Source of the DNA: Rhodospirillales bacterium | Lineage (GTDB): Bacteria > Pseudomonadota > Alphaproteobacteria > Kiloniellales > JAKSDN01 | Assembly: GCA_029859805.1 (NCBI GenBank) | Contig: JAOUCL010000005.1 | Span: forward strand, 1-48,593 | Direction: 5' to 3' | DNA: 48,593 bases | Part shown: positions 15,831 through 41,735 of the stretch, in pieces | How the letters are laid out: every line of letters starts with the position of its first letter | Position numbering within the stretch: the stretch's first letter is position 1 | The notes under the pieces: model-generated | What the model was told of the DNA's origin: nothing | The model's input: only the letters and a program-made list of their open reading frames with translations | Database searches by the model: none | Position numbers and translations under genes: made by a program

Positions 15831-15903
15831 GGCGCGGGCATCCTCCTGGCCAAGGGATCCAAACGATCCGGGGCAGGAGGCTCTGGGCGGGGGGACCAAG
15901 GAA

Positions 15904-15994
15904 GGTTCCGTTCCCTGCGCCGGCATGACCCGGATCAGGTTCGAAGGGTCACCGCCGTTGACCGGCGGTCTCTCAGCCCGCGAGGGCTCCCCTA
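15904..15994 (-). promoter_or_regulatory. TPP (THI element) riboswitch
   Basis: Reverse strand TAGGGGAGCCCTCGCGGGCTGAGAGACCGCCGGTCAACGGCGGTGACCCTTCGAACCTGATCCGGGTCATGCCGGCGCAGGGAACGG; conserved CTGAGA and CCTGATCCGGGTCATGCCGGCGCAGGGA. Confidence 0.97.
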
Positions 15995-16072
15995 GGAACG
16001 TGGCCGACCATGGGCGAGGCCGGGGACCCTGTCAAGCCGGTGAGCGGAAAACCCCGGGTTTTTGCGGCGGAC

Positions 16073-39994: not shown

Positions 39995-40890
39995 ACGCGC
40001 CGATACGTGGCTGTCAGACCACTATCGGCACGGCCCTGGACCGGGCCGCCGAAAGCCTCGGGGCCGCCGGGGTCGAGCAGCCGCGCCGCGACGCGCGCTT
40101 GCTGTTGGCCGAGGCGCTGGGCGGCGGCGCGGCACTGATCACCGGCTATCCCGAGCGGCAGCTCGACGCCGCCGAAGTCGATCGTTTCGCGGCCCTGATC
40201 CGGCGCCGTTCGGCCCGCGAACCGGTCTCGCGAATCCTCGGCCGCCGGGATTTCTGGAGCTTGACCCTGCGCGTGACCCCCCACGTGCTGGACCCGCGGC
40301 CGGACAGCGAGACCCTCGTCGAAGCGGTCTTGGCGCGGATCGGAGATCGTGATGCCGCGTTGCAGGTGCTCGATCTCGGCACGGGCAGCGGCTGCCTGTT
40401 GCTGGCGCTCCTGTCCGAGTTGCCGCGGGCGCGGGGGCTCGGCGTCGATATCAGTCCTTCGGCCCTCTCCACCGCGCGGGAAAACGCCCGCGTCCTCGAC
40501 CTTTCGTCGCGCGCCGAATTCCGCCGGGGCGACTGGGCGCGGGAGCTTGTCGGATCCTGGCAAGTTATTGTTAGTAATCCGCCCTATATAATAGAGAGTG
40601 CTATTGCCGACTTGGCGCCCGAGGTCGCTCGCTACGATCCGAACATGGCGTTGTCGGGTGGCGCCGACGGGCTGGTGGCGTACCGAAGCTTGGTGCCTCA
40701 GGCAGCTCGGCTTCTGGCCCCGGGAGGAATCCTGGCCCTCGAAGTTGGCGCCGGACAAGCGGACGAGGTCGAACAACTGCTCGGCGGGGCTGGCTTGCTA
40801 GGCCTTTGCCGCGCACGCGATCTCACGGGAACAGACCGCTGCGTGCTGGCGACGAACAAGGCGGGAATAAGCGAAAATACGATCGGTTGA
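39991..40890 (+). CDS. prmC: Peptide chain release factor N5-glutamine methyltransferase
   Basis: [27 protein letters not shown] (NPPY). Confidence 0.96.
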
Positions 40891-40913
40891 TTGAAAAAAA
40901 CAGTTGGAAAGTG

Positions 40914-40997
40914 GCGCATTCAGGACTAGGTTTGAGGGGTGAGCCCAAGGCTCCTGCGTCCCAGAGGGACGTCCCACGACCCCCAAATTGAGTGCGT
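40914..40997 (+). ncRNA. Candidate structured RNA (three-way junction) in prmC-DUF4167 intergenic leader
   Basis: Hand folding: 40914-40922 with 40989-40997; 40931-40940 with 40979-40987 (one bulged A); hairpins 40941-40953 (GAGCC-CAA-GGCTC) and 40957-40971 (CGTCCC-AGA-GGGACG). Strand assumed from flanking genes. Confidence 0.4.
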
Positions 40998-41093
40998 GGA
41001 AGAATAGCTCGCAAGATCGCCCAAAGGCGGTGCACGAGGAGATGCGAGTGAATGACGTCCGTTTAGGACTAACAGATCTAAAGTAACGGAGCT

Positions 41094-41735
41094 ATGAGAC
41101 CAGGAAACAACACACGGCGACCTCGCGGTCGGCCGAACCGTAAGCAGCATGGGACGCCTCGGGCGCACTCCTATGACAGTCACGGTCCCGATGTCCGAAT
41201 CCGCGGTAACGCGCCGCAGGTTTACGACAAATACATAACGCTTGCGCGGGACGCCACGGCCTCCGGCGACCGGATCGCGGCCGAGAGCTATTATCAGTTC
41301 GCGGAGCACTATTTCCGGATCATGAACGATTCGACCGATCCGCGGCGACCCTCGCAGCAACCTCCGCGAAACGCTCAGGAACAGCCGATACTGGACCAGG
41401 AGCAGCCGCTACTGGACCAGGAGCAGCCGCAGGTCGATTGGCCCGTTCAGTCGGATGGCGCCATTGGCGACGCGGGCAAGGTGCCCGAGCAGACTGAAGA
41501 GAAGGCGGCTGAAGACAAGGCCGCCGAAGAGCCCGCGCCGCCTGAGGAAGAGGCGCCGCGCCGGGCGGCCAAGGGCCGGCCACGCGGCCGGCGTCGGACC
41601 ACCAACGGCGCAAAGGATCCTTCGGAAAAACCTGCCGCCGAGGTCAAGCGATCAACTAAAGGGGCAACCGTCGACGCGAGCGAATCGGCTGAGCCGGACC
41701 AGGGTCCCGACGACAGCGAAAGCGCCACTCCGTAA
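41094..41735 (+). CDS. DUF4167 domain-containing protein
   Basis: DSHGPDVRIRGNAPQVYDKYITLARDATASGDRIAAESYYQFAEHYFRIMND; acidic/basic low-complexity tail. Confidence 0.93.
   Translation: MRPGNNTRRPRGRPNRKQHGTPRAHSYDSHGPDVRIRGNAPQVYDKYITLARDATASGDRIAAESYYQFAEHYFRIMNDSTDPRRPSQQPPRNAQEQPILDQEQPLLDQEQPQVDWPVQSDGAIGDAGKVPEQTEEKAAEDKAAEEPAPPEEEAPRRAAKGRPRGRRRTTNGAKDPSEKPAAEVKRSTKGATVDASESAEPDQGPDDSESATP
41389..41430 (+). repeat. 21-bp exact tandem duplication inside DUF4167 CDS
   Basis: TACTGGACCAGGAGCAGCCGC twice in tandem, encoding QPxLDQE repeats. Confidence 0.9.

Follow-up and report, generated by a model that had tools for sequence, protein, structure and literature searches.

A conserved candidate leader RNA and promoter upstream of the alphaproteobacterial DUF4167 gene

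Introduction

DUF4167 is a widespread alphaproteobacterial gene whose function is uncharacterised; a literature search found it mentioned in 4 papers, in no case in the title or abstract. The window analysed here is a stretch of 48,593 nucleotides, an alphaproteobacterial contig; its relatives within the order that carry names are Pelagibius, Kiloniella and Kiloniellaceae. Within the window, prmC and the DUF4167 gene have a gap at 40891-41093 between them. What does this gap contain, and does it belong to DUF4167? A preliminary description had drawn a three-way-junction RNA there, two small hairpins closed by an inner and an outer stem, and had suggested a cis-regulatory leader or an sRNA. A binding partner of such a leader would offer a route into the function of the gene downstream of it.

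41094-41735, + strand: DUF4167 gene, downstream of the leader (Pfam PF13763, E=8e-29), encoding a protein with Arg-rich AT-hook-like tails

Results

The gap holds an undescribed RNA

The strings quoted in the preliminary description are all present where it placed them. It had recognised no known RNA family, and the database agrees: Rfam 15 covariance models gave no match to 40880-41110 up to E=10, and none at the gathering threshold in 20 homologous loci. The sole Rfam match in the window lies elsewhere, a TPP riboswitch at 15894-16003 on the - strand (70 bits). A repeat or MITE is excluded, as the segment occurs only once in the genome. Leader identity within the genus is 98.1%, compared with 95.3% in prmC and 87-88% over the C-terminal portion of DUF4167. 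The gap holds a real structured RNA that is undescribed and absent from Rfam.

A conserved promoter precedes DUF4167

A DUF4167 gene was identified in 93 of 100 related genomes, and 90 upstream regions were extracted. Aligned, they show the following elements.

40894-40900, + strand: A-tract, UP-element-like, just 5' of the -35; at each of the four positions from -7 to -4, counted from TTGGAA, 78-100% of the aligned promoters have A
40904-40909, + strand: -35 element TTGGAA, from conservation of the strict motif
40927-40932, + strand: -10 element TAGGTT (TANNTT) after a 17-bp spacer; T24 and A25 invariant and T29 at 97% among 60 strict matches
40938, + strand: predicted transcription start, give or take about 3 nt, placed 6-7 nt 3' of the -10

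The strict motif TTGGAA-N16-nTAnnT, at this single exact spacing, stands upstream of DUF4167 at 57 of the 61 loci from the same order. The same motif gave 0 matches in reverse-complement and reversed controls, and the exact site occurs only once in the 5.36-Mb genome. Across the 60 aligned strict matches the spacer sequence is not conserved. The element also recurs in genera further away, as far as Maricaulis, Terasakiella, Magnetospira and Azospirillum. The -35 and -10 fall below the E. coli sigma-70 threshold. Because this is not a textbook sigma-70 site, the assignment is based on conservation, which supports 40894-40932 as a dedicated promoter of DUF4167. Transcription would then start near 40938.

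The closing stems of the three-way junction are not conserved

The three-way junction has an attractive basis in the single sequence. Folded alone with RNAfold, 40914-40997 gives essentially the drawn structure (MFE -39.1 kcal/mol, z = -3.1). In a shuffle control 2 of 200 shuffles folded as well, a p-value that is biased because the region had been picked for its folding. With modest flanks, z drops to -2.1.

40914-40922, + strand: 5' arm of the outer stem, in the promoter spacer between the -35 and -10 and outside the conserved RNA, judged by conservation and tree-aware tests

Among 27 relatives, pairing amounts to 57% in the outer stem (40914-40922 with 40989-40997) and to 59% in the inner stem (40931-40940 with 40979-40987). 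Neither shows covariation in excess of shuffles, which reached the observed score in 64 of 500 cases for the outer stem and 149 of 500 for the inner. The tree-aware null used here keeps the number of substitutions in each column and moves their positions over the tree. Against it, paired cells gave p=0.32 for the outer and p=0.41 for the inner stem once the two sequences of the discovery genus were left out; with the discovery sequences kept in, double changes in the outer stem were borderline (p=0.028). The sister species carries a single difference inside the drawn fold, G to T at 40936, which breaks an inner-stem pair and is uncompensated. The outer 5' arm lies between the promoter elements, and the inner 5' arm (40931-40940) shares positions with both the -10 and the predicted start. 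A three-way-junction RNA closed by these stems is thus largely refuted, and we give it almost no chance of being correct. Its two small hairpins, P1 and P2 below, are conserved or covary among relatives. The proposed switch did not hold beyond the genus: the palindrome GGGACGTCCC is present only in the window genus's two sequences among 27 leaders. An attractive single-sequence fold can mislead, and here its arms sit in promoter DNA.

A row of hairpins is supported at the helix level

Downstream of the predicted start, the alignment supports five helices.

40941-40953, + strand: hairpin P1, GAGCC-CAA-GGCTC; all 4 core pairs (GAGC/GCTC) intact in every one of the 26 relatives that have letters there; tree-aware p=0.001 for paired cells
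40956-40972, + strand: hairpin P2, GCGTCCC-AGA-GGGACGT; 97.5% of cells paired, double changes at 5 of 6 pairs; tree-aware p=0.002 for paired cells and 0.006 for double changes
40974-40999, + strand: hairpin P3, CCACG...CGTGG with the C-rich loop ACCCCCAAATTGAGTG; 90.8% of cells paired; tree-aware p=0.054 alone
41007-41049, + strand: closing stem P4, GCTCGCA...TGCGAGT; 89.7% of cells paired and double changes at 3 pairs; tree-aware p=0.004
41016-41031, + strand: hairpin P5, ATCGCC-CAAA-GGCGGT, inside P4; 89.8% of cells paired and double changes at 3 pairs; p=0.15 alone

P3 had been missed in the preliminary description and competes with both of its closing stems. Covariation in P1-P5 exceeds shuffles, slid controls and the tree-aware null. 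Taken as groups of helices, P1-P3 reach p=0.001 and P4-P5 p=0.003 in the tree-aware test; P3 and P5 are weak individually and below significance alone. An all-pairs R-scape-like test returned 0 significant single pairs, at low power given some 27 sequences with near-invariant stems, so the support for structure applies at the level of helices. P4 and P5 were scored on a trimmed alignment (A9), because MAFFT misaligned P5 at full length. Conserved structure with compensatory changes is seen for the helix groups P1-P3 and P4-P5; single pairs fall short of significance, and the outer and inner stems show no excess of covariation.

Folding agrees in part. An RNA begun at 40938 has P1, P2 and P3 as its MFE structure (z=-2.95); when all 186 nt of leader plus start region are folded, the MFE opens P1 and P2 for long-range pairs. 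In the stems there are 48 G.U cells against 14 A.C cells, an excess that is consistent with an RNA made from the + strand. The segments GAGC and CCACGA with the C-rich loop are invariant, and P1 is lost in one relative (L013). From the alignments, then, the structure appears to be a row of hairpins and not a three-way junction. A pseudoknot between a 5' G-run and the C-rich loop of P3 was also considered. It is plausible in some species (e.g. L014) and pairs poorly in others, and its G-run is located near or ahead of the predicted start. We do not claim it.

The RNA is found with DUF4167

A covariance model built from 10 sequences found the RNA in 29 of 63 genomes of the order. With E below 0.01, the P1-P3 RNA stands upstream of DUF4167 in about 30 of the 63, with one clear copy each. 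The culturable relative Pelagibius litoralis has the same leader (L132). With a refined model and an E limit of 0.1, the number rose to 34 of the 63, the last few being marginal. In a blind search of 385 genomes of the class, the best matches outside the order were G409 (8e-6), G238 (9e-4) and G333 (1.6e-3). All three belong to one other genus, where the RNA lies immediately upstream of DUF4167 and behind the same promoter. The remaining class matches (E from 0.003) have no DUF4167 nearby and were treated as chance. Every confident match, the blind ones in the class included, is upstream of DUF4167 and co-oriented with it.

Several families of the order, Kiloniella among them, keep the promoter and carry a leader that the model does not recognise. 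Kiloniella-type leaders are of similar length and have different hairpins. L039, L054, L055, L058-L062, L064 and L067, from Kiloniella-type genomes (L060 excepted), share the promoter and a different leader in which a GGGGC/GCCCC hairpin is followed by a long stem, GGGTAT..GCCGACAA/TTGTCGATACCC, around a hairpin. The Kiloniella-type leader is possibly analogous or rearranged.

In genus g10 (L026, L027, L031, L032) a T-rich run of up to eight T lies 3' of P4, a lineage-specific feature. One relative has a second DUF4167 fragment, 70% identical, at a contig end (G004:C116:2-313), which is a duplicate or an assembly artefact.

Discussion

A probable cis-acting leader and its alternatives

The promoter, the RNA structure, its strand and its exclusive linkage to DUF4167 are each supported by comparison of sequences. 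Together they lead us to read 40938-41093 as a cis-acting 5' leader of the DUF4167 mRNA, to which we give a probability of about 0.72. That the leader acts in cis and forms the 5' part of the message is what we infer from this arrangement. Of the two roles first suggested, the exclusive linkage favours the cis leader. The sRNA fares worse, as no terminator was found in the window.

An independent small RNA would end at P4, with DUF4167 reached by read-through. Genus g10 offers a terminator-like arrangement of just this kind, in which P4 is followed by a U-run (TTTTTTTT in L027, TTTTTT in L032). The U-run is missing in the window and in most relatives, however, and the conserved hairpins continue towards the DUF4167 start codon. 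Unlinked copies in the searched genomes of the order and class amount to marginal matches only, and we regard this reading as improbable. We see a similarly small chance of a metabolite or ion riboswitch controlling DUF4167. The cis position, the conserved structure with its invariant segments (GAGC and the CCACGA-C-rich loop) and the negative Rfam search would suit one. Yet the leader accompanies just one gene, itself of unknown function, and has no metabolic neighbours, and its conservation lies mainly in short stems. Of a conserved expression platform, neither a terminator in the window nor conserved pairing to the start region was seen.

The hairpins might instead make up a constitutive 5' UTR that guards the mRNA from decay or keeps the start region open, unregulated. 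A hairpin a few nucleotides from the 5' end of an mRNA is a known stabilising feature, and the near-invariant P1 lies close to the predicted 5' end. The absence of a conserved alternative structure also fits. A pure stabiliser would have no need of several specific conserved helices and a conserved C-rich loop in P3, and we hold this explanation to be unlikely, though one to keep in mind. Attenuation by a leader peptide draws on an ATG in the P1 loop of some relatives, which opens a short MAPAS-like frame. There is no such ATG in the window or in most others, and loop indels break the frame; with neither start nor frame conserved across leaders, the uORF was rejected. An element acting as DNA rather than RNA is disfavoured by the bias of stem G.U over A.C. 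These last two readings we consider very improbable.

Comparison with known leaders

Two kinds of RNA come nearest. One is the orphan ybhL RNA motif of Rhizobiales (RF00520), which is also a 5' leader from Alphaproteobacteria and goes with a single gene of unknown function. The ybhL RNA is supported by covariation and has a transcription start close to its first hairpin (PMC1273637). It differs in being a single doubly bulged hairpin, some 60 nt long and verified by in-line probing, whereas the DUF4167 leader comprises four to five distinct hairpins that span roughly 155 nt. It also precedes a different gene, and the DUF4167 leader has no Rfam match. The other is the autogenous leader of alphaproteobacterial S15 (rpsO), which is likewise structured, lies 5' of its gene and has the encoded protein as its proposed reader. 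In that case, too, sequence-based prediction had included an outer helix (H0), which was abandoned when mapping put the transcription start downstream of it (PMC4137082). S15 binding has been shown in vitro and in vivo, while DUF4167 binding is proposed, and structure and gene are unrelated. The suhB RNA (RF00519) is similar as an alphaproteobacterial RNA with its own promoter. It is multicopy, unlinked to a gene and terminator-ended (PMC1273637), unlike the DUF4167 leader, which is single copy, linked to DUF4167 and without a general terminator. The DUF4167 leader belongs to neither the ybhL nor the S15 class and is a new candidate within a familiar type of leader RNA. What is new here is an undescribed conserved leader RNA together with a highly conserved dedicated promoter for DUF4167.

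A possible autogenous mechanism

How might the leader work? Transcription from the promoter at 40894-40932, beginning near 40938, would produce a leader that, 5' of the start codon, folds into P1, P2, P3 and P4 (around P5) and influences DUF4167 expression in cis. DUF4167 protein, which has Arg-rich AT-hook-like tails, could then bind the leader hairpins when in excess, and the bound protein would lower the translation or stability of its own mRNA. Such autogenous control, with the protein as ligand, is our leading mechanism; it is speculative, and we propose it tentatively. We bet on it first because of the Arg-rich AT-hook-like tails and a proteome listing from Paracoccus, where PHA granule preparations contained a DUF4167 protein among ribosomal and H-NS proteins (PMC11150862). 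Since no terminator was found in the window, control at translation or stability is likelier than attenuation. The U-run after P4 in one genus leaves room for termination that may be lineage-specific.

DUF4167 proteins carry two Arg/Gly/Pro-rich AT-hook-like stretches, RRPRGRPNRK and, at the C-terminus, KGRPRGRRR or KRRGRPRK. A broader and more doubtful proposal is that DUF4167 is an alphaproteobacterial protein that binds nucleic acids and adjusts its own level by binding the leader, its AT-hook-like tails possibly also acting at the A-tract of its own unusual promoter. If this is true, the leader would reveal the RNA recognised by an uncharacterised protein that is widespread in the class.

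A PDB structure search with the DUF4167 core (a beta hairpin and a helical hairpin, mean pLDDT 77) returned no significant relative. AT-hook-like motifs lie near both ends of the protein (RRPRGRPNRK and the K-R-GRP-R type), and an A-tract lies in the gene's own promoter. Within the genus, the DUF4167 linker (window 41350-41449) is about 75% identical to L010 and L011, far more variable than the leader or the N-terminal domain.
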